A stretch of 64,000 bases of DNA, from assembly GCA_002239025.1 (NCBI GenBank), contig MPNM01000004.1, positions 62,001 to 126,000 on the forward strand, read 5' to 3'. The notes under the pieces are model-generated. The model ran no database searches and was not told the origin of the DNA. It was given only the letters and a program-made list of their open reading frames with translations. Position numbers and translations under genes: made by a program. Of the stretch, positions 15,113-32,654 are shown piece by piece (position 1 is the stretch's first letter; each line of letters begins with the position of its first letter). The stretch is from Chloroflexi bacterium bin125. Lineage in GTDB: Bacteria > Chloroflexota > Dehalococcoidia > Bin125.

Positions 15113-15119
15113 ATCGGCC

Positions 15120-16601: not shown

Positions 16602-16636
16602 TGCCTGCTCTCGCGCCGTAGGCGCGTTTGAGCGCT

Positions 16637-16661
16637 TGCTCCCCCCGCGAAGGAGGGAGCA
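16637..16661 (-). terminator. Hairpin between binding-protein and permease genes
   Basis: TGCTCCC and GGGAGCA arms 11 nt apart lie in the 87-bp gap after the first binding-protein stop. There is no U-tract on the minus strand, so partial attenuation or mRNA 3'-end protection is more likely than full termination. This could raise binding-protein output over permease output. Confidence 0.4.
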
Positions 16662-16688
16662 GAGCACTCATCGAATGCTGGATCCGGT

Positions 16689-18701
16689 CTAGGCCGGGAA
16701 GTCCGGGTGGCTGCTGTCCATCCAGACGGTGTCCCAGTTGTGCGAATCGTGCGCGAACTGCCAGGTGTCGTCGGGTCGATTGACGTACGGCCACCAGATG
16801 GTTGGCGCGATGCCATTCATGACACCAAACCAGCCGAAGATGCCTTCAAGGCCGTGTTCCTCGTCAACGCCGAGGCCAATCCGCTGCACCTCAAGCGCCA
16901 TCTCGCGGCGCTGCTCGGTGTCGAGCGTGACTGACATCGTGTCGACGATGTCTTCAACCGGCTGGTAGTTGTACTGCGTCAGGTTCGACGCGCCACCAAC
17001 CTTCAGCGACAGGGTGAACTGCGCCGTCGGGTCGAGGTCGGCCGGCGGGTTGGTCCAGGTCGGCGCCCTGCCGGGGAACGTCTTGTTGTCGTAGCGGTCC
17101 TGCATCACGGTGTAGGGCTGGATGTCCAGCTCGACGTTGATGCCGGTCGCCTCGGCGTACATGTTGCGCGTGGTCTCGGTGATACCCGGGTAGGTCTGCT
17201 CCCAGAGGTCGGGGATGTAGATCGTCACCGTGCGGTCCTTGTCGAAGCCGGAGGCATCGATCAGTTCGCGGCAGAGCGCGATGTCGGCATCGCGGTCGAG
17301 GCGGAAGCCCGGAACCGTGCGCAGCTCCTCGGGCGGAACGGTCCAGGCTTGGCTGAACCACGGACAGAAGTGGGTCGCCGACGGCTTGGCCGCGCCCAGG
17401 TAGACGGCATCGATCAACAGGTCGCGGTCAACCGCAACCTGCATCGCGTAGGCGAAACGACGGTCGAGGTATGGGTTCCCCAGCCCGTCCGAGCCTTCCC
17501 AGCCGGGCTCATAGGTTCCCATCACGGTGACGATCGTGAAGCCGAATGCGCCTTCCTCGACCGGGTGGTCGGGGAAGTCGCCGGTCAGCTCTTCGACCTG
17601 CACCGAAGACAGCGGGAACCCGCCGATGTCGATGCCCTTGCCGCGGTATGCCGCGTCGACAGCGGTCGCATCGGTCAGGTTGACGAACTCAACGGCGTCC
17701 GGGTAGGGAAGCTGCTGGCCGTCGGGACCATCCTTCCAGTAGTTGGAGTTGCGTTCCAGGTAAATGCCGATATCCGGGTCGAAGGTTTGCGGGATGAACG
17801 GGCCCGTACCGGAGGAGAGTTCGACGTTTGCGGTTTCGTCGCGCCAGCGAGTACCGAACTCCTGGATGCCCTCGGGCGAGGTGATCCAGGAGAAGGGCCG
17901 CAGGATGGTGCCACCGAGATAGGTCGCGTCGGGACCGGCAGTCTTAGCGACGAAGGTCGTCTCGTCGACCGCTTCGTGCGAGGCGGTCTTCTTGAAGGCG
18001 TCCTGGCCGCGGAATCGCGCGTCGGGGTTGCCTTCAGCGTCGAGCGCGGCGATCTGGCGGTCGAAGTTGATCACAATGTCGCTGGCGGTGACATCACGAC
18101 CACCCTCGGTCGGGTATTGGTCCCAGTAGCGGGCGCCTCGGTCGACATTGAAGATGTAGGTCTCGGCATCGGGCGTCTCGGGCAGAGATGTGATGTCCGC
18201 TTCCATGATCCCGCCCTCTTTCGAGGCCCAGCGGATCATGTAGTTCATGTAGAACCCCATCCAGTACTGGGTGGGGCCGAAGACGCCGCGGTGCGGGTCG
18301 AAGAAATCGTGCGTAGCGGCAGGAGTTGAGAAGCGCAGCGTGCCGCCGTACGAGCGAAGGTCGCCGGCCTGCTGTTGCTGCTGCATCGCCTGCTGTTGCT
18401 GCTGCTCCTGCTGATCGGCGGCGGCAGCGGTCTGCTCGGCTTGCTGCTGCTGATCCTGCTGCTGCATGGCCTGTTGCTGGTGCTGGGCCTGCTGCTGTTG
18501 CTGCATGGCCTCTTGCTGGTCCTGCTGTTGGGCCTGCTGACGTGAAGCAGCCGCTGGCTGCTGAGCATCGTCGTCATCGCCACCACAACCGACCAGAGCC
18601 AGGCCGGCTGCGCCTACGCCAGCCCTTCCTGAAGCTCGCAACAGATCTCTGCGGCTGAGCCGATTGCGCTTCATGCGCTGCCAATAGTTACGTTCGGTCA
18701 T
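16689..18701 (-). CDS. ABC transporter substrate-binding lipoprotein, family 5 type (SBP1)
   Basis: 670 residues from MTERNYWQ at 18701 (AAGGAG 8 nt upstream); the longer upstream frame has no support. The N-terminus has a Tat-like motif S16-R-R-D-L-L-R and a hydrophobic stretch ending LALVGC39, a lipobox, so it should be exported and lipid-anchored. Residues 46-112 are a glutamine/alanine/methionine linker encoded by CAG/CAA runs (18366-18566). The binding domain starts GGTLRFSTPAATHDFFDPHR and ends HPDFPA. The module order is SBP1-DppB1-DppC1. Ligand is probably an oligopeptide-like solute, but this is not shown. Confidence 0.93.
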   Translation of the reverse strand: MTERNYWQRMKRNRLSRRDLLRASGRAGVGAAGLALVGCGGDDDDAQQPAAASRQQAQQQDQQEAMQQQQQAQHQQQAMQQQDQQQQAEQTAAAADQQEQQQQQAMQQQQQAGDLRSYGGTLRFSTPAATHDFFDPHRGVFGPTQYWMGFYMNYMIRWASKEGGIMEADITSLPETPDAETYIFNVDRGARYWDQYPTEGGRDVTASDIVINFDRQIAALDAEGNPDARFRGQDAFKKTASHEAVDETTFVAKTAGPDATYLGGTILRPFSWITSPEGIQEFGTRWRDETANVELSSGTGPFIPQTFDPDIGIYLERNSNYWKDGPDGQQLPYPDAVEFVNLTDATAVDAAYRGKGIDIGGFPLSSVQVEELTGDFPDHPVEEGAFGFTIVTVMGTYEPGWEGSDGLGNPYLDRRFAYAMQVAVDRDLLIDAVYLGAAKPSATHFCPWFSQAWTVPPEELRTVPGFRLDRDADIALCRELIDASGFDKDRTVTIYIPDLWEQTYPGITETTRNMYAEATGINVELDIQPYTVMQDRYDNKTFPGRAPTWTNPPADLDPTAQFTLSLKVGGASNLTQYNYQPVEDIVDTMSVTLDTEQRREMALEVQRIGLGVDEEHGLEGIFGWFGVMNGIAPTIWWPYVNRPDDTWQFAHDSHNWDTVWMDSSHPDFPA

Positions 18702-18751
18702 GATTTCTCGCTCCTTCAGAAGCGCGACGTACGCGCGTCGATGGTTGGGAA

Positions 18752-18757
18752 AGTGTA
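18752..18757 (-). promoter_or_regulatory. Putative -10 element for SBP1
   Basis: On the minus strand TACACTTTCCCAA matches TACACTCTGCCAA (SBP2) and TACACTCTCCCAA (SBP3), at 51 bp from the start codon. A matching -35 is less clear here than for SBP2 and SBP3. Confidence 0.35.
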
Positions 18758-18806
18758 GCGCACAACGCGTCCAGTGGAGTACTCGCCAAGGGATGCCGTT
18801 GTTTCG

Positions 18807-18902
18807 GTGATACCCGCGCTTGGCGCGAGAATCACGACGAATCGAATACCCATGAAACTGCTGAGCGAACCGAGATTGCCGCGCCGGAGCGCGGCAATGA
18901 CG
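18807..18902. repeat. Two palindromic repeats (families B and A)
   Basis: 18807-18836 is a degenerate GTGATACCCGCGC...GCGCGAGAATCACG copy. 18871-18902 is a good CGAGATTGCCGCG...CGCGGCAATGACG copy. Both match elements elsewhere in the window and lie in the 254-bp gap between SBP1 and the DppC-like gene at 18956. Confidence 0.65.
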
Positions 18903-18923
18903 AGGGTGCAGTGATCGTCCTGA

Positions 18924-18949
18924 ACCCGCTGGAGCGCCGCCCAGCGGGT
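18924..18949 (-). terminator. Hairpin just after the DppC2 gene
   Basis: ACCCGCTGG and CCAGCGGGT form a perfect 9-bp stem with an 8-nt loop, 7 bp past the stop codon on the minus strand. No U-tract follows, so strength as an intrinsic terminator is uncertain. It fits the end of the second transporter module. Confidence 0.45.
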
Positions 18950-18955
18950 GTCCGG

Positions 18956-20194
18956 CTAGCGGCTGCCCCGCAGTCTCGGGTCGAAGACATCGCGCAGCGC
19001 ATCGCCGAGGACATTGAAGCCAAACACCAGACTGGTCAGCGCCAGGCCGGCGAACAACGAGGTCCATGGCGACTGCACGATGAACTGGCGACCGTCGGCG
19101 ATCATCTTGCCCCAGGAGACATCGAGCGTGCCCAGTCCGAGGAAGCTGAGCGCGGCCTCGGCGAGGATGAATGCGCCGATGGTGATCGAGAAGATCACGA
19201 TCAACGGCGCGACGATGTTAGGAAGAATGTGCATCAGCATGATTCGGGCGTTCGTCGCGCCGAGCGTCCGGGCGGCCTCGACAAAGGGCATCTCGCGCAG
19301 CGCGATTACCGCGCCACGGACAATCCGCTGGACGGGCCCCACAGCCAGCACCGAGAGCGCCAACGTCACCCACAGCGCAGATGGCTCCGTCACCGAGCGC
19401 AACAACAGCAACAGCACGATCGGTGGGAAGGAGAGCAGCGCGTCCATCAGACGGTTGATCGCCAGGTCAATGTTGCCGCCCAGGGCGCCAGAAATGAGTC
19501 CGATGGCTGTACCGGCGACCACACCGATCAGCGTGGCAAAGAAGCCAATGTAGAGCGACAACCGCGCGCCTTCAGTGACCCGCGAGAAGAGGTCGTGTCC
19601 CGCGCGGTCGGTGCCGAACCAGTGCTTGCCCGAGGGCCCCTGGAGCGACGCCGTTGTCAGCGGCGTGTTCGTGCCGGTCGCGAGCAAGTCATCGACATCG
19701 TTGATCGTGCCGTCAACGATCTCAATCTGGGCTGGGTCGAACTCCGCTAGGTGAGTCAGCAGCGTTCCGCTTGCGATCAGCCCTTCGGCGTACTCCAGCA
19801 TGTCGTCGAGTACGCCGGACTGCTCAGCCAGGTCGCCATAGACCTCGGGCTGCAGCAGAAGTTCGCGAAGCTCGCTGTCGGAGATATCAGCCGATTTGCC
19901 GTCGAGTTCGTTGGCGATCCTGTCGTCGGCGAAGTTGGCGTTGGCGACCTTGAAGACATCCTGCGAGTCGTAACGACCCAGGCCCAACCAACCGCCGCCG
20001 GAACCGACCGTCCCCACGGCGATGATCGACCAGACCACGACCAGCGTCAACCCGGCGGCGCCCAGGGGCTTGGTCCGGAAAAATGACCCCAACGCGCCGC
20101 CAAGCAGCTGTAGAAAGCTGCGTTCCTCAACGCGCAGGCCCTGTGCCTGCGCGAACTCCTCGAGTTGCGTCTGAGACTGTCGGTCATCACTCAT
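18956..20194 (-). CDS. Peptide/nickel-type ABC transporter permease, DppC-like (copy 2)
   Basis: 412 residues, a close paralog of the gene at 13862. The same plan is seen: a Q-rich N-terminal segment, helix 1 (LVVVWSIIAVGTVG, about 51-64), an insertion at about 75-182 starting RYDSQDVFKVANANFADD, then the shared LQGPSGKHWFGTDRAGHDLF block and a canonical permease core with EAARTLGATNARIMLMHILP. The insertion is the most divergent part between the copies while the core is almost identical. It lies 36 bp after the DppB-like gene. The membrane subunit pair would need ATPases encoded elsewhere. Confidence 0.93.
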   Translation of the reverse strand: MSDDRQSQTQLEEFAQAQGLRVEERSFLQLLGGALGSFFRTKPLGAAGLTLVVVWSIIAVGTVGSGGGWLGLGRYDSQDVFKVANANFADDRIANELDGKSADISDSELRELLLQPEVYGDLAEQSGVLDDMLEYAEGLIASGTLLTHLAEFDPAQIEIVDGTINDVDDLLATGTNTPLTTASLQGPSGKHWFGTDRAGHDLFSRVTEGARLSLYIGFFATLIGVVAGTAIGLISGALGGNIDLAINRLMDALLSFPPIVLLLLLRSVTEPSALWVTLALSVLAVGPVQRIVRGAVIALREMPFVEAARTLGATNARIMLMHILPNIVAPLIVIFSITIGAFILAEAALSFLGLGTLDVSWGKMIADGRQFIVQSPWTSLFAGLALTSLVFGFNVLGDALRDVFDPRLRGSR

Positions 20195-20230
20195 GGTGCC
20201 CCTCCCCGGTCAGCCGGTGCAGTCACCCGG

Positions 20231-21859
20231 TTAGGCGAAGCGAATACGCGGATCGATGACCGCGTATGAAATGTCGATGATGATGTTCACCACGATGATG
20301 AACAGCGCGAAGAAGAAGACCATCGTTTGTACGACAGGCAGGTCGGCCTGGTTGATGCGCTGAATCAGCAGCAAGCCGATGCCGGGAATGTTGAACAGCA
20401 GCTCGAGGATGATGTTGCCGCCAACCAGGGCCGCCACCTGCAAGCCGAGCACGCTCATCACATTGACCAGGGCGTTGCGCATCGCGTGTCGCCGGATCAC
20501 GGTCCGCTCGCGCAGACCTTTCGACCAGGCGGTGCGGACGTAGTCCTGGCGCAGCACTTCGAGCAACTCGGACCGCGTAATCCGCATCAGACCGGCACCG
20601 GCGGCAAGTCCGCCCGCGACGGCAGGAATCGTGTACAACGCCAGCGCTCCGGTGAACGATGTGAACACCGATCGCGCCTCCTCTGAGGTCAGCGGGATCG
20701 ACCAGATCCCGCTATCCGAGATGCCGCCCGGCGTAACCACGAAGATCATCATGGTCGCGATCCAGAAGGAGGGCGCCGCCAGCGCGAGGATGGCAAACCC
20801 TCGCAGCGCATAGTCCAGCGGGCGATCCTGACGCATGGCCGAGAGGATGCCGACCGGCAACGCGATGGTCAGCGCCACGATCAATGCGTACACGTTGAGA
20901 TGCAACGTACGTGGTAATGCTCGGAGGAAGATGTCCAGCGACCCCTCCTGGGTCTGGAACGACGGACGGAATTTCAACCGCACCGTCTCCCAGAGGAAGT
21001 CGATGTACTGGGTGCCGAGCCCCTTATCGATGCCCAGGCGATGCCTGATGTTGGCCTCGGTAATCTTCGTGGTCGGCGTGACGATCCGGTCGGATGGGAC
21101 GTGGATCGCGACTCCGGCTTCTAGTGGCTCAGCCGGATCAATGCCCCGGTTCGCTGTAGTCATCTCTTCGAGATCGCGACCGTAGGCGACGGCAATCTGC
21201 TCCAGCGTGTCACCCTCGTCGGTGATCACCAGCGCCGTTGGTAGCAGTTGCGTATCGGCCGATAGATTTCCGTCGGGATTGCTAGCGCTACCGGTTGGAT
21301 TCACCGCCAGGATGTCGCTCGCATCAATGCGATTGACGTGCGCTAACTCATCGAGCGTCAGGCTGTCGCGGATGACCAGAATCGACCCCGCCTCGGCATA
21401 CGGCTTGCCCTGGTACAGCGGGAAGTTGACATCGGGGTTGCGGTCGATCAGGAGTTGCACTCCTGTTTCGACTTCTTCAGGCAAAGCAATGCTCTGTCCA
21501 ATTGAAATCGCCTCGAGTAACTGGCCGGGAATCACCGTGATTCTCGTACCCGGTCGCAGCTCACCGGAGGTGTCCAGATCAGGATTCTCCGCAAGCAGCG
21601 TCGACACCGACGTGTTGTTACTGGTTGCGATCTTCTCCAGCGTGTCGCCCGAAATCACGCGATGCGTCGTGTCGGTGACTTCGATATAGCCAACGATCTC
21701 CGATTCACGCTGCTCCGCGCCCTGATTCTCCAGGTTCGAGAGTTTCCGTGTAACAAAGTCGCCAGGCAGCGCGCGCAGCGCCAGGAACAGGAGTGAGATC
21801 ACCAACCACAGGGTCGGGATCACAAGGATCAGGCGTTGGATGAGGTATCGCTGCATCAC
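20231..21859 (-). CDS. Peptide/nickel-type ABC transporter permease, DppB-like, with LysM repeats (copy 2)
   Basis: 542 residues, larger than copy 1 by about 49. The insertion after helix 1 (about 43-268) carries LysM at 66-111 (HRVISGDTLEKIATSNNTS), a degenerate unit at about 160-208 (LVIRDSLTLDELAHVNRIDA) and another clear LysM at 211-256 (VITDEGDTLEQIAVAYGRDL), the last absent from copy 1. After it come LGIDKGLGTQYIDFLWETV and a standard DppB core with EVLRQDYVRTAWSKGLRERT. LysM binds N-acetylglucosamine-containing polymers, so the loop may dock to cell-wall or envelope glycans. The start could be either of two adjacent Met codons. Confidence 0.93.
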   Translation of the reverse strand: MMQRYLIQRLILVIPTLWLVISLLFLALRALPGDFVTRKLSNLENQGAEQRESEIVGYIEVTDTTHRVISGDTLEKIATSNNTSVSTLLAENPDLDTSGELRPGTRITVIPGQLLEAISIGQSIALPEEVETGVQLLIDRNPDVNFPLYQGKPYAEAGSILVIRDSLTLDELAHVNRIDASDILAVNPTGSASNPDGNLSADTQLLPTALVITDEGDTLEQIAVAYGRDLEEMTTANRGIDPAEPLEAGVAIHVPSDRIVTPTTKITEANIRHRLGIDKGLGTQYIDFLWETVRLKFRPSFQTQEGSLDIFLRALPRTLHLNVYALIVALTIALPVGILSAMRQDRPLDYALRGFAILALAAPSFWIATMMIFVVTPGGISDSGIWSIPLTSEEARSVFTSFTGALALYTIPAVAGGLAAGAGLMRITRSELLEVLRQDYVRTAWSKGLRERTVIRRHAMRNALVNVMSVLGLQVAALVGGNIILELLFNIPGIGLLLIQRINQADLPVVQTMVFFFALFIIVVNIIIDISYAVIDPRIRFA

Positions 21860-21912
21860 TGCTCCCGATCAGTTGGCGTCTGCTCCGGTGGACGCTGGCA
21901 AGCTTGTGGATA

Positions 21913-23931
21913 TCAGGCCGGGTAATCCGGGTGGTTGACATCGATCCAGGACTCGTCGTACCGATGGCTGGCGTGGGCGAATTGGAGCGTGTCGTCGCCG
22001 TGATTGACGAACGGCCACCAGAGCACCGGCGAGATACCGTTCATCACGCCTGGGCTGTTGGCAACGCCATCGAGTCCGTAGTCGGGGTGCGTGCCGAGCA
22101 GGATGCGCTGAGCTTCCTGCGCCAACGACTGACGCTCCTCCTGGTCCAGGGTGACCGTCATCGTTTCGGCGATTTCGGTCATTCGGGGATGTTCGTACGC
22201 AAGGTTGTTCGTGCTGCCGCCAGGGATGTAATTGTTGTTGTACGAGGTGGTTGGATCGAGGTCCGAGGGCGGGTTGGTCCACTGCGGGCCCTGTCCCGGG
22301 TAGGTGCCCTCGATCCAGCGCTGGAGAATGACGGTGTAGGGCTGCACGTCGAAGCTGACTTCGAGGTCGAGCGCTTCGCGATACATCCCGACTTCGGTCT
22401 CGAGGATGCCGGGGTAGGTGCCTTCCCAGATATCGGGTGCGATGAGTTGCAGCCCACGACTCCGGTCGTAGCCCGATGCGTCAAACAGCGCCCGAGCTTC
22501 GGCGATGTCAACTGCCCGGTCGGGCCGGAAGCCGGGCGTTTGCAGCAGTTCGTCTTCCGGGATAGCCCAATAGGCGTTGTACCAGGGCGTCTCGCCCATG
22601 CCGGAGGGCTTTCCGGATCCGAGATAGACCGTGTCGATCATCAGATATCGGTCAACGGCGACATGCATCGCTTGCGTGAAGCGGCGGTCGATCCAGGGAT
22701 TGCCCAGGCCGTCTTCACCTGGATAGTCGGCATTGAAGTTCGCGCCACCGGTAATGATCGTGAAACCGAAGGCCACCGTGCCTTGCCCGTGATCGGGGAA
22801 GTCGTTCAGAATGCCCTCCGCCTGGAGCGACGACAACGGGAAGCGGCCGTTGAAGATCTCCTTGCTGCGATACGCGGCCTCAACCGCGGTTGCATCCGTG
22901 ATGTTGGACAGCGTGACCGAGTCGTAGTACGGCAACGGCTGCCCGTCGATGCCCATCTTCCAGTAGTTCTCGTTACGGACCATGTCGATCCCAATGTCAG
23001 GATCGAAGCGCTGCGGAATGAACATGCCGGTGCCCGAGGAGAGTTCGACATTGCCGGCTTCGTCACGCCAGCGGTCGCCAAACTCATTGATCGCTTCCGG
23101 GCTCGTGACCCAACTGAAGGGCCGCAGCGGCACGCCCATCCAGGTCGCATCGGGGCCAGCAGTTTTGGCAACGAAGGTCGTCTCGTCGGGCACATCCATG
23201 GATGCCGTCTTGCGGAAGGACGAAGCGCCAAGGAATGTGCCGTCCTCGGCTCCGTTCGCATCAACGGCTTCGATCTGACGTTGGAAATTGACACGAATGT
23301 CTTCGGCGTCAACGAGTCGACCGCCTTCTGTCGGGTACAGGTCCCAGTACCGCGCGCCCTGGTCAATGCGGAAGATGTAGGTCTCTGCGTCTGGAACCTC
23401 TGGGAGCGAGGCGACGTCCGCCTCCATGATGCCCTGTTCCTTGTTGCGCCAGCGGATGAGGTAGTTCATGTAGAACCCCATCCAGAACTGAGTCGGCCCG
23501 AACACGGCCCGGTGCGGATCGAAGTAGTCGTGCGTTGCCGCGGGCGTTGAGAATCGCAGGTCCCCGCCACGCACTACCTGGCTGACCGCAGCCTGTTGGG
23601 CTTGCTGATCGTCGGCATCTTCGGCTGTTTGCTCTTGCTGGTCAGCCTGCTGTGCGGTCTGGTCAGCAGATTGGTCCTGCTGGCCCTGCTGCATCGCCTG
23701 TTGTTGCTGCGACTGCATCGACTGCTGCTGTTGCTGCTCGCCCTGCTGCATCGCCTGTTGTTGCTGCTGCTGTTGTTGCTGGACCTGCGCGACGCTGTCG
23801 TCGTCATCGCCACCGCAACCGACCAGGGCCAACCCGGCCGCGCCTACTCCAGCACGCCCCGAAGCCCGCAACAAATCTCGTCGACTCATGCGATTGCGAC
23901 GGATTCGTTTCCAGTAGTTGCGTTCGGTCAT
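21913..23931 (-). CDS. ABC transporter substrate-binding lipoprotein, family 5 type (SBP2)
   Basis: 672 residues starting MTERNYWKRIRRNRMSRRDL; AAGGAG precedes the ATG by about 8 nt. Tat-like S16-R-R-D-L-L, lipobox Cys at 39, then four Asp and a Q-rich linker at about 49-120 (23572-23787). The binding domain opens GGDLRFSTPAATHDYFDPHR and ends DVNHPDYPA. It belongs with SBP1, SBP5 and SBP6 by the GFYMN-x-x-IRW block. It is the first gene of module 2 (SBP2-DppB2-DppC2) and has a candidate promoter at 23974-24004. Ligand unknown. Confidence 0.93.
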   Translation of the reverse strand: MTERNYWKRIRRNRMSRRDLLRASGRAGVGAAGLALVGCGGDDDDSVAQVQQQQQQQQQAMQQGEQQQQQSMQSQQQQAMQQGQQDQSADQTAQQADQQEQTAEDADDQQAQQAAVSQVVRGGDLRFSTPAATHDYFDPHRAVFGPTQFWMGFYMNYLIRWRNKEQGIMEADVASLPEVPDAETYIFRIDQGARYWDLYPTEGGRLVDAEDIRVNFQRQIEAVDANGAEDGTFLGASSFRKTASMDVPDETTFVAKTAGPDATWMGVPLRPFSWVTSPEAINEFGDRWRDEAGNVELSSGTGMFIPQRFDPDIGIDMVRNENYWKMGIDGQPLPYYDSVTLSNITDATAVEAAYRSKEIFNGRFPLSSLQAEGILNDFPDHGQGTVAFGFTIITGGANFNADYPGEDGLGNPWIDRRFTQAMHVAVDRYLMIDTVYLGSGKPSGMGETPWYNAYWAIPEDELLQTPGFRPDRAVDIAEARALFDASGYDRSRGLQLIAPDIWEGTYPGILETEVGMYREALDLEVSFDVQPYTVILQRWIEGTYPGQGPQWTNPPSDLDPTTSYNNNYIPGGSTNNLAYEHPRMTEIAETMTVTLDQEERQSLAQEAQRILLGTHPDYGLDGVANSPGVMNGISPVLWWPFVNHGDDTLQFAHASHRYDESWIDVNHPDYPA

Positions 23932-23966
23932 ACAGAAGCTCCTTGCTCCGAGATTGGAGGTGCAGA

Positions 23967-24004
23967 TTGGCAGAGTGTAAGCGAAATGACGCCTGACATG
24001 CCAA
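23967..24004 (-). promoter_or_regulatory. Promoter-like element of SBP2, shared with SBP3
   Basis: Minus strand: TTGGCAT, then TACACT 19 nt after the first hexamer, then CTGCCAA. SBP3 has the same arrangement with the same spacing. TTGGCA and TGCCAA are also an inverted repeat flanking the -10-like hexamer, so a repressor site is an alternative reading. Confidence 0.5.
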
Positions 24005-24039
24005 CTGCTTCACACGAGCGGTCGAATGCGGCGCCGAGC

Positions 24040-24099
24040 GCCCGACTGCTCACCCGCTTCGCACGCTGCCGAAGCAGCGAGCGGGGTGAGCAGCCGGGC
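24040..24099 (-). terminator. Long imperfect hairpin after SBP3
   Basis: GCCCGACTGCTCACCC pairs with GGGGTGAGCAGCCGGGC across a GC-rich centre that can extend the stem. It lies 20 bp past the SBP3 stop on the minus strand and before the SBP2 promoter. It has no clear U-tract. It probably separates the two transcription units. Confidence 0.5.
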
Positions 24100-24118
24100 C
24101 TATGGCCATTCCGAAGGG

Positions 24119-26170
24119 CTACGCGTCGTAGTCCTCGTGGGCGGTGTCGAGCCACAGCTCCTCGACGATCTTGTGGCCCTGGTGGGCGAACTGGTAGCCG
24201 TCCGGGATCACGTGGTACCAGGGCCAGGCCGCCTCGTTCGAGACCGGGTTCATCACGCCCAGACCCGGCGAGAGCGATTCCCAACCGTAGTCGGGGTGGA
24301 TGCCAAGCTGCAGTTGCACCATCTCGCGCGAGAGCTCACCCTTCGCCTCGAAGTCGAGCGTGACCTTCATCTCTTCGGCGATCTCGGTGACGCGTGGGTT
24401 CTCATAGCTGTAGAAGTTCGCCGATCCGCCCGGCACGCGACCGTTGAGCCAGTAGCTGGTCGGGTCGAGGTCGGAGGGCGGGTTCGTCCAGCAGGGAATC
24501 TGTCCGGTGGACGTGCCGTCGACCAGGCGCTGGAGCAGGATCGTGTACGGGTCGATGCTGATCTCGATGCCAACACCGAGCGCCGACTCGTACATGTTCT
24601 TTGCGGTTTCGACAATGCCCGGGTAGCGCTGCTCCCAGACGTCAGGGGCGAAGAGGTAGATCGAGCGGCCGGAGTCGCGGAATCCGCTGGCGTCCATCAG
24701 CTCGTTTGCTTCGCGGATATCAGCCTCGTGGTCGGCGCGGAATCCTGGGATCTCCGTCATCTCTTCCTGGCTCGGTGACCAGAAAGTCGAGAACCAGGGA
24801 ATCTCTTCCAGGACCGACGGCTTGGCCGAGCCCAGGTAGACCGTGTCGATCATCAGATAGCGGTCTGTCGCCAGGTGGAAGGCCGCGGCCACGCGACGGT
24901 CGAGCCAGGGATTGCCTTCACCGTCCTCGCCGGGCCAGTCGGGGTTGTAGTTGGTGCGGATCATGATCGTGAATCCGCCGCCGACGGTGTTGCGCTGCAT
25001 CTGCGGGAAGTCGTTGAGCAGCGATTCGACGCGACTGATGTTGAGCCAGGCGCCGTCGAGCTCCTTGGAACGCACGGCAGTTTCGATCGCCGTCTCGTCG
25101 AACAGGTTGTAGTACTCCATCCGGTCGACGTAGGGCAGTTGCTGACCCCAGGCGTCTTCCTTCCAGTAGTCCGGGTTGCGATTGGCGATGAATACCTCGG
25201 TCGGCTCGTAGCTCTCCGCGATGAACGGACCCGAGCCGGCCACACGCAAGGTGGTCGGGTCGTCGCGCCAGACATCCGATTCGGTACCCCACTCGCGGAT
25301 GCCTTCCGGCGCCGCCATCCAACCGAAGGGCCGCAGGAAGGTCGCCGAGAGATAGGTCGAGTCGACGCCGTCCGATGTCGTGCGCAGAGTGCGCTCATCC
25401 ACCGCTTCGACGCTGGCGACCTTACGCCAACTTGAGAGGCCGAGGAACGAGCCATCTTCGGCGCCGGTCGAGTCGACACCGGCAGTATTGCGGTCGACGT
25501 TGACCACGATGTCCTCAGCGGTAATGTTGCGTCCGCCTTCAGTCGGATAAGCGTCGTGCCAGCGCGCGGCCGGATTGATGTTGAAAATGTAGGTCTCCGC
25601 GTCGGGATTCTCCGGCAAGGAGGCGATGTCCGCCTCCATCTCCGACTTCTCCTTGTTCTTCCAACGGATCAGGTTGTTGTAGAGCATCGAGTGCATGAAC
25701 TGGGTCGGTCCGAACACCCCGCGGTGCGGGTCCCAGTAGTCGTGCGTCTCGATCGTCGAGGCGCGCCGCATGACGCCGCCGTGGACGGGGATGCCCGTCT
25801 CCGGAACCGCGGCGGCCGCCTGTTGCTGTTGCTGTTGCTGCGCGTCGGCGACCGCCTGCTGCTCCTGCTGATCGGCCTGCTGCGCTGCCTGGTCTGCAGC
25901 CTGTTCCTGTTGCTCTTGCTGCATGGCCTGCTGCTGTTGTTGCTGCATGGCCTGTTGCTGCATGGCCTGCTGCTGCATCGCTTGTTGCTGCTGTTGCTGC
26001 TGCTGGGCGACTTGCGAGACGCTGTCGTCATCGTCATCGCCACAGCCAACCAGGGCCAGACCAGCCGCTCCCACACCAGCGCGTCCCGACGCGCGCAAGA
26101 GCGCACGCCTGCTCACGCGGTTGCGCTTCATCCGTTGCCAGTAGTTCCTACCGCTGTCTCGCTCGGTCAT
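24119..26170 (-). CDS. ABC transporter substrate-binding lipoprotein, family 5 type (SBP3)
   Basis: 683 residues. The N-terminus has a four-residue insertion relative to its paralogs (MTERDSGRNYWQRMKRNRVS), then R21-R22 of the Tat-like motif and lipobox Cys43. The Q-rich linker spans about 56-121 (25808-26005) with clear AMQQQ repeat units. The binding domain reads STIETHDYWDPHRGVFGPTQ and, with SBP4, forms a subgroup differing from the others (LIRWKNKE, ARWHDAYPTEGG). It ends DTAHEDYDA. No permease is adjacent. It has its own promoter-like element at 26213-26243. Ligand unknown. Confidence 0.92.
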   Translation of the reverse strand: MTERDSGRNYWQRMKRNRVSRRALLRASGRAGVGAAGLALVGCGDDDDDSVSQVAQQQQQQQQAMQQQAMQQQAMQQQQQQAMQQEQQEQAADQAAQQADQQEQQAVADAQQQQQQQAAAAVPETGIPVHGGVMRRASTIETHDYWDPHRGVFGPTQFMHSMLYNNLIRWKNKEKSEMEADIASLPENPDAETYIFNINPAARWHDAYPTEGGRNITAEDIVVNVDRNTAGVDSTGAEDGSFLGLSSWRKVASVEAVDERTLRTTSDGVDSTYLSATFLRPFGWMAAPEGIREWGTESDVWRDDPTTLRVAGSGPFIAESYEPTEVFIANRNPDYWKEDAWGQQLPYVDRMEYYNLFDETAIETAVRSKELDGAWLNISRVESLLNDFPQMQRNTVGGGFTIMIRTNYNPDWPGEDGEGNPWLDRRVAAAFHLATDRYLMIDTVYLGSAKPSVLEEIPWFSTFWSPSQEEMTEIPGFRADHEADIREANELMDASGFRDSGRSIYLFAPDVWEQRYPGIVETAKNMYESALGVGIEISIDPYTILLQRLVDGTSTGQIPCWTNPPSDLDPTSYWLNGRVPGGSANFYSYENPRVTEIAEEMKVTLDFEAKGELSREMVQLQLGIHPDYGWESLSPGLGVMNPVSNEAAWPWYHVIPDGYQFAHQGHKIVEELWLDTAHEDYDA

Positions 26171-26212
26171 CTACTTGCTCCTTCGCTGATCGGTTCGCCA
26201 GCAGGTTGGGAG

Positions 26213-26243
26213 AGTGTAGTGCCGGACACCAGGATTATGCCAA
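26213..26243 (-). promoter_or_regulatory. Promoter-like element of SBP3, shared with SBP2
   Basis: Minus strand TTGGCAT...TACACTCTCCCAA with 19 nt between hexamers, matching SBP2 base for base in the conserved parts although the intervening sequence differs. It lies 43 bp before the start codon. Confidence 0.5.
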
Positions 26244-26274
26244 CTAATCAACACCATGCCGAATAGTTCGCTTC

Positions 26275-26324
26275 TCGGAAGAAAACGCCAGCCCCAAGGC
26301 GACACACCGCCGTAGAGGGGCTGG
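26275..26324 (-). terminator. Rho-independent-like terminator after SBP4
   Basis: On the minus strand CCAGCCCC ... GGGGCTGG forms an 8-bp stem with an inner GGCG/CGCC pair, directly followed by CGTTTTCTTC. It starts about 24 bp past the SBP4 stop. This is the most terminator-like structure in the transporter locus. Confidence 0.6.
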
Positions 26325-26347
26325 AGATTTCTGACCTGGGACGGCGG

Positions 26348-28366
26348 CTAGGCCGGATACTCCGGGTGGTCCGTGTCCAGCCAGGTGCTGAAGTGGTTGT
26401 GTCCCGCGTGCGCGAACTGATAGGCATCGGGATTCGGATGGTAGTACGGCCATCCAAGGTCGTTGTTGATGGGATTCATCACACCGATTGAGGGCGAGAT
26501 GCCGTCCCAACCGTATTCAGGATGGACGCCCATCATGATCTGCACGACTTCGTCTGCCATGATCTTCTTTTCTTCGAGATCGAGCGTGACCTTCATCGTC
26601 TCGGCAATCTCGGTCACGCGCGGATGCTCGTAGTGGTAGAGGTTGGATGAACCGCCCGGCACGCGACCGTTCAGCCAGGAACTGGTCGGGTCGAGGTCCG
26701 AGGGAGGATTCGTCCAGCTCGGGCCGTCACCTGGATAGGTGCCTTCAACAAGCCGCTGCAAGATTACGGTGTAGGGCTGGAGATCGATGTTGACCGTCAG
26801 ACCCAGGGCATTTTCGTACATGCCCTTGATCGTCTCAACGATTCCCGGGTAGCGCTGTTCCCATACGTCCGGTTCAAGGATGTAGAGCTCACGGCCCGTG
26901 TCGCGGAATCCAGTCGCATCAACCAGGTCGTTGGCGAGCTTGATGTCCGCATCGTGGTCCGGGTTGTAGCCCGGCCAGGTAATCAGCTCGTCTTCCGTGG
27001 GCGCCCAGAAGGCCGAGAACCAGGGCGTCTCCGGCAGAGCCGAGGGCTTGGCCGACCCGAGATACACCGCGTCGATCATCAAGTAGCGGTCTGTGGCTGC
27101 GTGGAATGCGGCCCACATCCGGCGGTCAATCCAGGGATTGCCGAGCCCGTCTTCGCCGGGCCAATCGGCGTTGAAGTTGCTGCGGCACTGAATGGTGAAG
27201 CCGCCCGCCGTCGTCCGTTTGACGAGCTCTGGGAAGTCGCTCTCCAGCGCCTGGACGATCGAGATGTCCAGATTGACCGCGTCAAGCTCCTTGGTCCGCA
27301 TGGCCGTGTCGAGCGCCGTCTGCTCAAACAACTCGATGTAGTCGAAGCCGTCGAGATAAGGCAACTGTTGGCCCCAGGCGTCGTATTTCCAGTAGTCGGG
27401 GTTGCGGCGAACCACCAATCGGTCGGTTGGATCGAAGGACTCGGCAATGAACGGGCCCGAGCCTGCTACGCGCAGCACGGTCTGTTCATCGCGCCAAACA
27501 TCGGACTGGTAGCCCCACTCGTCGATGCCCTCGGGAGCCGCAATCCAGCCAAATGGGTTGAGCACCGAGGCCGACAGGAATGTCGAGTCTGTTCCATCCG
27601 ACTTGAGCGTGATCGTACGCTCGTCAATCACGTCCCGAGAGGCGATCTTTCGCCAACTGGACGAGGAAAGGAAGGTTGAATCCTCCGACCCGGTCGAGTC
27701 GAAGGCGTTGACCTGTCGTTCAATGTTGTAGTCGATGTCGTTGGCGGTCACTTCGCGACCGCCTTCGGTTGGGTACTTGTCGTGCCAGCGCGCGCCGTCG
27801 ACGACGGAGAAGATGTACGTCTCGCCGTCGGGAATCTCCGGCAACTCGGCGAGGTCGGACGCCATGATCGCCTGTTCCTTGTTGGCCCAGCGAATCAGGT
27901 AGTTGTAGACCCAGCCATGCATGAACTGGGTCGGTCCAAACACTCCGCGATGTGGATCCCAGTAGTCGTGCGTGCTGATTGTGGAGCCAAGTCGGAGCGT
28001 GCCTCCATACTTGGGGACTTCGCCGCTGGCGACGGCCTGTTGCTGCTCTTCCTCCTGCTGCTCAGCCGGCGTCGCTTCCTGTTGCTCAGCCTGTTGGGCC
28101 TGCTGGGCCGCCGACTGTTCCTGTTGCTCTTGTTGAGCCTGCTGCATAGCCTGCTGCTGCTGTTGCTGCGCAGACTGCTGCTGCATTGCCTGTTGCTGCT
28201 GTTGCTGCTGCTGTGGGGCCTGCGAAACACTGTCGTCATCGTCGTCGCCGCAGCCAACCAGAGCCAGACCAGCCGCGCCAACTCCTGCGCGTCCTGACGC
28301 CCTCAAGAGCGCGCGCCTGCTCATCTGCTTGCGTCGCATGCGCTGCCAGTAGTTGCGCTCTGCCAT
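26348..28366 (-). CDS. ABC transporter substrate-binding lipoprotein, family 5 type (SBP4)
   Basis: 672 residues starting MAERNYWQRMRRKQMSRRAL with a GGGGAGG ribosome site. Tat-like RR at 17-18, lipobox Cys39, Asp run, then a Q/E/A-rich linker at about 52-110 (28037-28213). The binding domain has STISTHDYWDPHRGVFGPTQ and WVYNYLIRWANKE, closest to SBP3. The C-terminus is DTDHPEYPA. It stands alone, with a terminator after it and a candidate promoter at 28411-28440. It may supply a second specificity to a shared permease pair. Ligand unknown. Confidence 0.92.
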   Translation of the reverse strand: MAERNYWQRMRRKQMSRRALLRASGRAGVGAAGLALVGCGDDDDDSVSQAPQQQQQQQQAMQQQSAQQQQQQAMQQAQQEQQEQSAAQQAQQAEQQEATPAEQQEEEQQQAVASGEVPKYGGTLRLGSTISTHDYWDPHRGVFGPTQFMHGWVYNYLIRWANKEQAIMASDLAELPEIPDGETYIFSVVDGARWHDKYPTEGGREVTANDIDYNIERQVNAFDSTGSEDSTFLSSSSWRKIASRDVIDERTITLKSDGTDSTFLSASVLNPFGWIAAPEGIDEWGYQSDVWRDEQTVLRVAGSGPFIAESFDPTDRLVVRRNPDYWKYDAWGQQLPYLDGFDYIELFEQTALDTAMRTKELDAVNLDISIVQALESDFPELVKRTTAGGFTIQCRSNFNADWPGEDGLGNPWIDRRMWAAFHAATDRYLMIDAVYLGSAKPSALPETPWFSAFWAPTEDELITWPGYNPDHDADIKLANDLVDATGFRDTGRELYILEPDVWEQRYPGIVETIKGMYENALGLTVNIDLQPYTVILQRLVEGTYPGDGPSWTNPPSDLDPTSSWLNGRVPGGSSNLYHYEHPRVTEIAETMKVTLDLEEKKIMADEVVQIMMGVHPEYGWDGISPSIGVMNPINNDLGWPYYHPNPDAYQFAHAGHNHFSTWLDTDHPEYPA

Positions 28367-28410
28367 CTGGTGCCTCCCCTATGTGTTGAGGACTAGTCAA
28401 CGATGCGCAG

Positions 28411-28440
28411 ATTGTATCGTCTTTTACACAAGGTTGGTCA
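28411..28440 (-). promoter_or_regulatory. Putative SBP4 promoter
   Basis: Minus strand TGACCA, 18 nt, TACAAT, placed 45 bp before the SBP4 start. The -10 matches the consensus well and the -35 only partly. Confidence 0.35.
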
Positions 28441-28473
28441 TACGCGCTACAGAGTCAGGCCGAGGAGCGGCTC

Positions 28474-30483
28474 TTACGCCGGGTAGTCCGGGTGGTTGAC
28501 GTCGATCCAGGTGTCGTCCATCCGGTGCGAGGCGTGCGCAAACTGAAGCGTGTCTTCCCCGCGATGCACAAATGGCCACCAGATCGCTGGCGAGATGCCG
28601 TTCATCACCGCCGGCGTCGGCGAGATGCCGTCCAGCCCGTGGTCGGGATGGGTGCCCAGGATGATCCGCTGCGCATTGTGAGCCATCTCGCGCCGCTCTT
28701 CCTGATCGAGCGTGAAACGCATCGTCTCGGCGATCTCGGCCATCGGCGGGTAGTCGTACGCGAGGTTGTTCCAGGCCCCGCCGGGGATGAAGCGGTTGTT
28801 GTAGGCCGTGGTCGGGTCCAGTTCGACTGGCGGGTTTGTCCATTGCGGGCCGGAGCCGGGATACGTGCCTTCGATCCAGCGTTGGAGGATCACCGTGTAA
28901 GGCTGGACATCGAAACTGACGTTGAGCCCCAGCGCCTCGCGGTACATGCTGACTTCGGTCTCGAAGATGCCCGGATAGGTCTGCTCCCAGACGTCGGGAC
29001 CGATCAGTTGCAGTTCCCGATCGATGTCGTACCCCGAGGCGTCCAGCAGGGCGCGAGCTTCGGCGATGTCGGCATCGCGGTCGGGTCGGAAGCCCGCGGA
29101 CTCCAGCAATTCTTCCTCGGGAATTGCCCAGTAGTTATTGAACCAGGGCGTGTCTTCCTGGCCTGACGGCTTGCCCGAGCCCAGGTAGACCGTGTCGATC
29201 ATCAAGTAACGGTCGACCGCCACGTGGAGAGCCTGACAGAAGCGCCGATCCAGATACGGATTGCCCAGGCCGTCCCAGCCGTCCCAGTCGGGACTGAAGT
29301 TGTAGAGCCCGGTGATGATTGTGAACCCGAACGCCAGGTTGCCACGAGGATGGTCCGGGAAGTCTCCCGAGATCGCTTCCACCTGGACCGAGGACAACGG
29401 GAAGCCGCCAATGATGATCTCGCGTCCACGGTAGGCCGCTTCGACGGCGGTCGGGTCGGTCAGGTTGGCAAACGTCACCTGATCGAAGTACGGCAGCGGT
29501 TGGCCGTCGGCGCCCATTTTCCAGTAGTTGTCGTTGCGCTTCATGTCGATCCCGATGTCGGGGTCGTAGCTCAGCGGAATCATCATGCCGGTGCCGGACG
29601 ACAACTCGGCGTTGGTGGTTTCATCGCGCCAACGATCACCGAACTCGGAGATTGCCTCCGGCGACGTGACCCAGCCAAACGGACCCAGCGGAATTCCGAG
29701 CCAGGTGGCGTCGGGACCGTCTGTCCGCGCAATAAAGGTCTGATCGTCGGGCGTTTCCATCGACGATGTCTTGGCATAGGAGTCCTGGTGCAAGAACGAG
29801 CCATCCTCTGCACCGGTCGCGTCCTTGCCATCGATATGTCGCTGGAAATTGACCACGATGTCTTCCGCCGTGACCAGGCGTCCGCCCTCAGTCGGGTACT
29901 GATCCCAGAAGGTCGCGCCCTGGTCGAGGCTGAACACGTATGTCTCGCCGTCCGGCGTTTCGGGCAGCGAGCAAATGTCGCTCTCCATGATCGCCTGCTC
30001 TTTGTTGCGCCAGCGAATCATGTTGTTCATGTAGAAGCCCATCCAGTACTGGGTGGGCCCGAACACACCTCTATGCGGGTCGAAGTAGTCGTGCGATGCC
30101 GCCGGCGTCGAGAACCGCAGGTCGCCGCCGCGCACAATATTGGAGACTGCAGCCTGCTGTTGGGCCTGATCCGAGGCGCTGTCGTCGCCGTCTTCCTGCT
30201 GCGCCGCCTGTTGTGCGGCCTGGTCGGCGTCCTGCTGCTGCATCGTCTGCTGCTGCGCGGATTGTTGCTGGGCTTGTTGCTGCATGGCCTGCTGCTGCAT
30301 CGCCTGCTGCTGCTGTTGCTGCTGCTGGGCCACCTGCGAGACGCTGTCGTCATCGTCATCGCCGCCACAACCGACCAGCGCCAATCCGGCAGCGCCGACT
30401 CCTGCGCGTCCCGACGCCCTCAGGAGCGCACGCCGGCTCATCTGCTTACGTCGCATGCGCTGCCAGTAGTTTCGTTCCGTCAT
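28474..30483 (-). CDS. ABC transporter substrate-binding lipoprotein, family 5 type (SBP5)
   Basis: 669 residues, MTERNYWQRMRRKQMSRRAL at the N-terminus, AAGGAG before the ATG. RR at 17-18, lipobox Cys39, five Asp, then a linker of AMQQQ/SAQQQ/TMQQQ units at about 53-110 (30154-30327). The mature domain starts GGDLRFSTPAASHDYFDPHR and ends DVNHPDYPA. It is closest to SBP6 across the binding domain (for example WDGWDGLGNPYLDRRFCQA is shared), while its N-terminus is closest to SBP4, which suggests segmental exchange. No permease adjacent. Ligand unknown. Confidence 0.92.
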   Translation of the reverse strand: MTERNYWQRMRRKQMSRRALLRASGRAGVGAAGLALVGCGGDDDDDSVSQVAQQQQQQQQAMQQQAMQQQAQQQSAQQQTMQQQDADQAAQQAAQQEDGDDSASDQAQQQAAVSNIVRGGDLRFSTPAASHDYFDPHRGVFGPTQYWMGFYMNNMIRWRNKEQAIMESDICSLPETPDGETYVFSLDQGATFWDQYPTEGGRLVTAEDIVVNFQRHIDGKDATGAEDGSFLHQDSYAKTSSMETPDDQTFIARTDGPDATWLGIPLGPFGWVTSPEAISEFGDRWRDETTNAELSSGTGMMIPLSYDPDIGIDMKRNDNYWKMGADGQPLPYFDQVTFANLTDPTAVEAAYRGREIIIGGFPLSSVQVEAISGDFPDHPRGNLAFGFTIITGLYNFSPDWDGWDGLGNPYLDRRFCQALHVAVDRYLMIDTVYLGSGKPSGQEDTPWFNNYWAIPEEELLESAGFRPDRDADIAEARALLDASGYDIDRELQLIGPDVWEQTYPGIFETEVSMYREALGLNVSFDVQPYTVILQRWIEGTYPGSGPQWTNPPVELDPTTAYNNRFIPGGAWNNLAYDYPPMAEIAETMRFTLDQEERREMAHNAQRIILGTHPDHGLDGISPTPAVMNGISPAIWWPFVHRGEDTLQFAHASHRMDDTWIDVNHPDYPA

Positions 30484-30617
30484 TAGTGCGTCTCCTTGCG
30501 TCCATGCCGATTGACTATGGACTCAGGAAAGATAGAGTTTCTATCACAGCATTGCAGAACGATCAAGAACAAGCGGCGAGTGGGCAGAGCGGCAACCAGA
30601 ACAGCGGACGCAGGTGA

Positions 30618-32654
30618 TCAAGCGGGATAGTCGGGATGCGAAACGTCGATCCAGGTGTCGTCCATCCGGTGCGAGGCGTGCGCAAACTGGAGCGTGTCTT
30701 CTCCGCGGTGCACAAATGGCCACCAGATTGACGGCGTGATCCCATTCATGACGCCGGGAGTCGGTGAGATGCCGGCGAGGCCGTGATCCGGATGCGTACC
30801 GAACATGATCCGCTGCGCCTCGTGCGCCATCTGCCTGCGCTGCTCCTGATCGACCGTAACCCGCATGGCCCGGACCAGTTCGGCCATGGGCTCGTAGTCG
30901 TAGAAGAGATTGTTCCAACTGCCGCCGGGGATGAATCGGTCGTTGTAGGACGCTGTCGGATCGAGATCGGCCGGCGGCGAGGTCCACTGCGGTCCCGCGC
31001 CCGGGAAACTGCCATCGATCCAGCGCTGCAGGACGACCAGCGTCGGCTGGATATCGAAGCGCACCTCGATGTCGAGCGCATCGCGATACATGCGCATTTC
31101 GGTCTCGAAGATGCCCTGGTAACTCTGCTCCCAGAGGTCAAATCCGATCAGCTCAATCGGCCGATCCTGGTCATAGCCGGAGGCGGCCAGCAGCGCTCTG
31201 GCCTCTTTGATATCGGCCTCACGGTCGGGGCGATAGCCGGGCGTCTCAACCAGTTCCTCTTCAGGAATGGACCAGTACGTGTTGAACCAGGGCGTGTCTT
31301 CCTGGCCCGAAACCTTGGCCGAGCCGAGATAGACCGTGTCGATCATCTGGTAGCGGTCGACGGCCAGATGCATCGCCTGGCAGAAGCGCCGATCGAGATA
31401 TGGATTGCCCAGCCCATCCCAGCCGTCCCAGTCCCGGTTGAAGTTGAACAGACCAGTCACGATCGTGAATCCGTATGGCACCTGGCCGGTCTGGTGGTCG
31501 GGAAAGTCACTGGATATTGCCTGGACCTGTAACGACGTGAGCGGGAACTGGCCAATGTTGATCTCACGGGTACGGTATGCCGTCTCAATCGCCGTGGGGT
31601 CGACCAGATTGGCAAACGTGACGCTGTCGAAGTAAGGCAGCGGCAGCCCGTCGGTGCCCATCTTCCAGTAGCCAGGATTGCGCTCCAGCTCGAGCCCGAT
31701 ATCGGGATCGTAGGAGCGAGGGATAGTCATGCCGGTACCGCTGGAGAGCTCGATATTGGTGGGCTCATCTCTCCATCGATCCCCGAATTCCGCGATCGCC
31801 TCCGGCGAAGTGATCCAGCCAAACGGACCGAGCGGCACACCCAACCAGGTGGCGTCGGGACCGTCGGTCCTGGCGATGAACGTATTGTCGTCCGGCGTCT
31901 CCATTGAAGTTGTCTTGGCGTAAGAGCTTTGCTGCAGAAACGAACCGTCCTGCGCGCCGGTGGCGTCCCGACCATCGATCTGACGCTGGAAGTTCACCCG
32001 GATGTCGTCGGAGGTGACAAGTCGCCCGCCTTCAGTTGGGTACTGATCCCAGAATCTGGCGCCCTGGTCGACACGAAACAGGTAAGTCTCATCGTCGGGC
32101 GTCTCGGGCAGGCTGCAAATGTCGGCTTCCATGATCGCCTGCTCCTTGTTGCGCCAGCGAATCATGTTGTTCAGATAGAAACCCATCCAGTACTGAGTCG
32201 TGCCAAAGACGGCGCGATGCGGATCGAAGAAGTCGTGAGAGTGGGCGGGAGTTGAGAATCGTAGATTGCCACCGCGCGGGATATGTGTGGTCAGCACTTG
32301 CAGCGTCTGTGACGACTCCTGCCCTTCAGTGACTCCAGCTTCCTGCTGTTCCGATCGCTGTGCCTGCTGTTCGGCTGCCTGCTGCGACGCCTGTTGACGT
32401 CGTTGAGTCGCGTCTTGTTGCCGCTCGGGCTCGCGTGGCTGTCGAGCGACTGCTTGTTGTTCTTGTTGTTGTTCTGGGACTGCCTGTTGTTGAGTGACCG
32501 CCTGGGACACAGCTCGCGGGCCATCCTCCTCGTTGTCGCCACAGCCGACCAACGCCAGACCGGCCGCGCCCACTCCAGCACGACCCGATGCCTGCAACAG
32601 TTCGCGGCGACTGAGCCGGCCGTGTAACTGCCGCCACTGCGTCTGCTCCGTCAT
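30618..32654 (-). CDS. ABC transporter substrate-binding lipoprotein, family 5 type (SBP6)
   Basis: 678 residues from MTEQTQWRQLHGRLSRRELL at 32654 (GGAG 7 nt upstream); a longer frame to 32747 would overlap the divergent methyltransferase start. RR at 16-17 and lipobox Cys38. Its linker (about 48-125, 32280-32513) is richer in Arg and Glu and lacks the regular AMQQQ units. The binding domain starts GGNLRFSTPAHSHDFFDPHR and ends DVSHPDYPA. It is the outermost, most diverged member of the array. On the minus strand TATACT at 32681-32686 could be its -10. Ligand unknown. Confidence 0.92.
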   Translation of the reverse strand: MTEQTQWRQLHGRLSRRELLQASGRAGVGAAGLALVGCGDNEEDGPRAVSQAVTQQQAVPEQQQEQQAVARQPREPERQQDATQRRQQASQQAAEQQAQRSEQQEAGVTEGQESSQTLQVLTTHIPRGGNLRFSTPAHSHDFFDPHRAVFGTTQYWMGFYLNNMIRWRNKEQAIMEADICSLPETPDDETYLFRVDQGARFWDQYPTEGGRLVTSDDIRVNFQRQIDGRDATGAQDGSFLQQSSYAKTTSMETPDDNTFIARTDGPDATWLGVPLGPFGWITSPEAIAEFGDRWRDEPTNIELSSGTGMTIPRSYDPDIGLELERNPGYWKMGTDGLPLPYFDSVTFANLVDPTAIETAYRTREINIGQFPLTSLQVQAISSDFPDHQTGQVPYGFTIVTGLFNFNRDWDGWDGLGNPYLDRRFCQAMHLAVDRYQMIDTVYLGSAKVSGQEDTPWFNTYWSIPEEELVETPGYRPDREADIKEARALLAASGYDQDRPIELIGFDLWEQSYQGIFETEMRMYRDALDIEVRFDIQPTLVVLQRWIDGSFPGAGPQWTSPPADLDPTASYNDRFIPGGSWNNLFYDYEPMAELVRAMRVTVDQEQRRQMAHEAQRIMFGTHPDHGLAGISPTPGVMNGITPSIWWPFVHRGEDTLQFAHASHRMDDTWIDVSHPDYPA

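Follow-up and report, generated by a model that had tools for sequence, protein, structure and literature searches.

Why should six neighboring genes for binding proteins each encode a long, mostly glutamine-rich stretch between the lipid anchor and the binding domain? The question is raised by the minus strand of the window (the whole stretch of 64,000 nucleotides that was analysed), where six ORFs were confirmed between 16689 and 32654 at the positions given in the initial annotation (Table 1). All six products match the family SBP_bac_5 (PF00496; 91–125 bits against a gathering cut-off of 32.4; Pfam), and the chains nearest to them by sequence in the PDB are haem-binding protein A and OppA. 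From the N- to the C-terminus each consists of an SRRxLL leader, an LALVGC lipobox, an acidic patch (about five of the seven residues following the lipobox Cys are D or E), a low-complexity tether and the domain. The starts of genes 1 and 6 were placed at 18701 and 32654, each with a ribosome-binding-like GGAG upstream; the longest-ORF starts of both lie further upstream.

Table 1. Binding-protein and permease genes of the cluster, in positions of the window.
Feature	Position	Strand	Leader	Tether	Remark
SBP_bac_5 lipoprotein 1	16689..18701	-	18585-18701	18351-18584	
SBP_bac_5 lipoprotein 2	21913..23931	-	23815-23931	23572-23814	
SBP_bac_5 lipoprotein 3	24119..26170	-	26042-26170	25784-26041	
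SBP_bac_5 lipoprotein 4	26348..28366	-	28250-28366	28010-28249	
SBP_bac_5 lipoprotein 5	28474..30483	-	30367-30483	30133-30366	
SBP_bac_5 lipoprotein 6	30618..32654	-	32541-32654	32277-32540	least Gln-rich, no Met, several Arg
DppC-like permease (BPD_transp_1)	18956..20194	-			likely partner
DppB-like permease	20231..21859	-			LysM-containing loop between TM1 and BPD domain
Second DppB-like permease	15120..16667	-			LysM-containing loop between TM1 and BPD domain
Second DppC-like permease	13862..15112	-			

In all six proteins the leader combines a twin-arginine motif with a weakly hydrophobic region (SRRxLL plus RAGVGAAGLALVGC, judged by eye), the lipobox that marks a bacterial lipoprotein is likewise present in 6/6, and the genome encodes TatC (PF00902, 199 bits), which bears out the lipoprotein and Tat-like architecture first proposed for this locus. 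The linkers had been put at 55–80 residues, a range that omits the acidic patch; measured from Cys to domain with the patch included, tethers 1 to 6 comprise 78, 81, 86, 80, 78, and 88 residues. The coordinates given in the initial annotation are correct to within a few codons. Glutamine makes up fractions of 0.49, 0.47, 0.47, 0.45, 0.42, and 0.28 of the six tethers, compared with 0.02–0.05 of the domains. The description of the linkers as dominated by Gln, Ala, and Met fits five of them (42–49% Gln), but not the tether of the sixth paralog (28% Gln), which is without Met and rich in E, R, and P.

What had been presented as a trait of six paralogs extends to nearly all SBP_bac_5 lipoproteins of the genome (3.68 Mb in 66 contigs, with 33 SBP_bac_5 genes) and to some other lipoproteins. 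A profile of leader and acidic patch gave exactly 30 strong matches (72–101 bits; the next score is 40 bits), all of them SBP_bac_5 proteins, and the 29 tethers read among these 30 have a mean Gln fraction of 0.55. One of the remaining three SBP_bac_5 proteins carries a Gln-rich tether behind a Sec-type leader, and two are without such a tether. The pattern of six consecutive Gln codons has 69 overlapping matches in the genome versus 0 for the reversed control pattern; matched by coordinates, all of these runs in the assembly fall in lipoprotein tethers, and apart from one run in the gene of an SBP_bac_3 lipoprotein at C36, the genes concerned all encode SBP_bac_5 proteins. Tethers that are first acidic and then Gln-rich (Q 0.29–0.43) also occur on non-homologous lipoproteins of the Sec type, namely SBP_bac_3, the Sec-type SBP_bac_5, DUF3179, and one unknown protein, and a hydrolase-like lipoprotein of the same genome has a Gln-rich spacer too. 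An SBP_bac_3 lipoprotein with a Sec-type leader (L361, 639-1820) contains AMQQQ in its tether. The 24 SBPs compared form 20 groups at 50% domain identity. Several of the Gln-rich lipoproteins are unrelated in both leader and domain, and the trait therefore cannot be due entirely to the descent of a single module.

Gln-rich tethers were found in 15/15 genomes of the genus, and the assembly artefact that had been considered for them is therefore not the explanation. The close named relatives are MAGs of Dehalococcoidia and Chloroflexota, several of whose names point to sponge samples and suggest a sponge-associated lineage. Sister genera keep the leader and the acidic patch with a different spacer, which is Gln-rich in g3, rich in E/A/Q with a net charge near -9 to -10 in g4, and PAAQ in g2; another family has shorter spacers of NGNG or T/P/G/S. 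Reciprocal best hits between this genus (g1) and g4 share 62% domain identity at a tether composition distance of 0.43; for paralogs within one g1 genome the values are about 24% and 0.22. The tether was closer to those of own-genome paralogs in 8/9 and 7/9 cases, in a small cross-genus sample of 9 ortholog pairs and with a composition window (C+8..C+45) that, in G208 and G116 with their short tethers, reaches into the domain. Since orthologs in sister genera bear other tether types, spacer composition tracks the genome better than it tracks the gene, which suggests that it is set genome-wide and not gene by gene. GC content and domain Gln were rejected as causes of the tether composition; domain GC and domain Gln are alike across the dialects and neither tracks them.

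Single genes and genomes among these relatives show further peculiarities. In G232, a genome of the E/A dialect, gene L223 has kept a Gln-rich tether, and its domain is 88% identical to that of the g1 relative L266 in G009, versus 40–70% for other cross-genus orthologs, a likeness across genera that perhaps reflects transfer. Many binding-protein tethers of G116 (L243-L255) are made of NG repeats (NGNGNG), and G257, a genome of another family, has 28 overlapping seven-Gln matches and no leader-module match. Two relatives, G010:C5:188135-190126 and G012:C22:307112-309106, have one internal stop codon each and are perhaps decaying genes or assembly errors.

Our preferred reading, which we regard as probable, is that the Gln-rich stretch is a hydrophilic spacer by which exported lipoproteins stand off the membrane, with its bulk properties selected and its sequence drifting. 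Judging from the motif and the presence of TatC, the twin-arginine leader would export the binding protein, and the lipobox Cys would then be lipidated and form an anchor on the outer face of the cytoplasmic membrane. The acidic patch and the subsequent 40–80 low-complexity hydrophilic residues would keep the binding domain off the bilayer, where it could diffuse, capture its ligand, and dock on the DppBC permease. Selection would retain the leader and the bulk of the spacer, i.e., hydrophilic character, low positive charge, and a roughly constant length, while exact sequence and length would drift fast. The residue by which these bulk properties are met would vary among lineages, with Q serving this genus and one of its sister genera and E/A/Q, PAAQ, NG, or TPGS serving the others, and would be common to most lipoproteins of a genome.

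The physical character of the tether was assessed from its amino acid sequence. On the charge-hydropathy scale the tethers lie well on the disordered side (mean hydropathy 0.28–0.34, boundary 0.44–0.47), and their composition points to disorder. The spacing of D and E has a period of 3.6 residues (z 10.5 for the genus, 4.9 in this genome), and part of the tether may therefore be helical. The check for a coiled coil proposed in the initial annotation led to its rejection: a simple spectrum of nonpolar positions, which is not a coiled-coil predictor, gave no heptad signal, the power ratios for the genus being 0.98 at 3.5 and 1.50 at 7.0 residues, both below the 3.70 at 13 residues. The 13-residue period is seen for nonpolar residues and for Gln (ratio 3.7, inflated by low-frequency trends), is no alpha-helical repeat, and may reflect 39-bp duplications. 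Set against a prion-like Q/N domain, the tether is high in Gln, has about zero Asn, and contains D and E.

How the tethers came by their glutamines may be explained in several ways. In this class of bacteria, spacer composition would be a trait of the whole genome if a shared component of the envelope (wall, matrix, or export factor) that varies by lineage selected the residue type, so that dozens of unrelated lipoproteins changed in concert among Gln, Glu/Ala, Asn-Gly, and Thr/Pro/Gly spacers, an extension that we regard as rather doubtful. That the composition of the whole lipoprotein set switches together would also suit a residue-specific role, in which the Gln/Ala/Met tether binds other tethers, wall polymers, or a Gln-crosslinking enzyme and clusters or positions the binding proteins. 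In line with such a role, Met is preceded by Ala in 158/176 cases, QQQ or QQE follows, and Met spacing peaks at 13–14 and 8–9 residues. These peaks, however, are weak within one genome and dominated by orthologs, no partner was identified, and orthologs in sister genera manage without a Gln/Ala/Met tether; we hold a residue-specific role to be improbable. The choice of residue may also be without function and result from neutral drift in composition.

Of 319 ortholog pairs, 93% have tethers of unequal length (4.3 aa apart on average and 12 at most), compared with 5% for the following ~70 residues, and tethers are still visibly different in ortholog pairs with 98–99% identical domains. The length variation predicted among related genomes thus exists, here between species. 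TRF detected imperfect arrays of period 3–39 at 4/6 tethers (18369-18539, 25856-26005, 28139-28213, and 30232-30325) and none at 23572-23814 or 32277-32540. Such arrays and the fast turnover in length would fit unstable CAG/CAA microsatellites that have grown by replication slippage and are tolerated because linkers are permissive. The codons themselves argue against slippage, which the initial annotation had invoked. CAG and CAA are interleaved in the tethers, CAA use is 0.24 versus 0.12 in domains, and the longest run of one Gln codon is 4 in the six genes and 5 in the genus. In counts that include orthologs, 1118 QQ doublets repeat the same codon, fewer than the 1252 +/- 18 obtained by shuffling, and pure CAG stretches of at least five codons occur twice where codon shuffles give about 53. 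Another CAG follows with a likelihood of 0.73 after 1–2 CAG and of 0.40 after 3 or more (p 7e-10; the p values of this codon-run analysis are optimistic because the sequences are related). CAA is favored after CAG in domains also (0.28); the shortage of CAG runs is partly a general codon-pair effect, and the drop after three CAG is a run-level effect. Other Chloroflexota genomes do contain pure CAG runs at least 7 codons long, and such runs are therefore not simply unassemblable. In place of the long identical-codon runs of a trinucleotide microsatellite, the tethers have runs shorter than those in shuffles. The interleaving of the two codons, together with the strong depletion of pure CAG runs of at least 5, contradicts simple trinucleotide slippage, and we give little credence to the tether as its product.

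The leader, near identical at the protein level (84%) between paralogs whose domains are 25% identical, could point to a single leader-plus-Q-tether module that recombination attached to many different binding proteins in an ancestor, but this is quite unlikely, as identity at the saturated third positions is no higher within genomes (0.431) than between them (0.436), E/A-tethered g4 orthologs bear the same leader type, and the same tether style is found on lipoproteins of the Sec type, whose leaders are unrelated. Gene conversion of the leader was rejected on the same third-position values, whose equality within and between genomes argues for constraint on the protein instead of recent conversion; an ancient spread of the module, followed by saturation, may have taken place.

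The stand-off spacer that we favor differs from the flexible arm reaching past LysM-bearing permeases that had first been suggested for the tether. The long LysM loop is present in 2/25 DppB-like permeases of this genome whereas about 30 SBPs carry the tether, and tether length near the LysM permeases is no different, in a comparison in which SBPs were grouped by C-terminal motif and one mis-measured length of 12 was included. Since the loop is rare and the tether genome-wide, the tether is not an adaptation to LysM permeases. Of the genomes compared, the loop was seen in this genus and, among the matches listed and read, in G158 and G250 and not in G241, G232, G147, G208, or G116. Within 13862-32654 of the window, five consecutive binding-protein genes share one permease pair and the sixth goes with the second pair; a similar array of binding-protein genes exists in other genomes of the genus, e.g., on contig 3 of G007. 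No gene for an ABC-importer ATPase was seen among the large ORFs at 8.5–34 kb.

The SBP_bac_5 domain (PF00496), here above the cut-off, is shared with the peptide-, nickel-, and haem-binding proteins OppA and HbpA, and we know of no such tether described for the solved relatives. Haloarchaeal Tat binding proteins have low-complexity acidic spacers after the lipobox, which are rich in G/D/S/T and are not known to be rich in Gln. Lipobox-containing Tat proteins of haloarchaea (PMC2945643) resemble those described here in combining a Tat-type leader with a lipobox and differ in being archaeal. Disordered N-terminal linkers are known from E. coli lipoproteins such as Pal and LolB, where the length of the Pal linker matters and the interaction with LolE is independent of exact sequence (PMC12826056, PMC12846838). 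Like the tethers, they are unstructured spacers from a lipidated Cys to a folded domain, but they belong to the outer membrane and Lol route of a diderm and have about 15–34 residues, whereas the tethers of these Tat-type substrate-binding proteins of Chloroflexota are longer, Gln-rich, and of one composition per genome. Eukaryotic polyglutamine tracts are similar in their CAG/CAA-coded Gln runs of variable length. In most eukaryotes studied their longest same-codon run is as expected by chance (PMC12147016), whereas here same-codon runs are below chance and the tracts are interrupted by A, M, E, and D. A survey of low-complexity domains sets eukaryotes apart from bacteria and archaea by a uniquely high occupancy of Gln-rich domains (PMC11132505). 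A partial literature search, which covered few subscription papers, turned up no genus whose binding proteins are described as carrying Gln-rich spacers. The lipoprotein spacer itself is known; its Gln-rich form on these binding proteins appears to be new.

Spacers behind a lipid anchor are commonly dismissed as filler. In this genome a single kind of spacer serves about 30 binding proteins with domains about 25% identical, and orthologs in sister genera have other kinds; together they offer naturally replicated cases in which to ask what selection acts on in a lipoprotein spacer. They also provide a bacterial case in which the protein keeps its Gln-rich tracts and the gene avoids pure codon runs.
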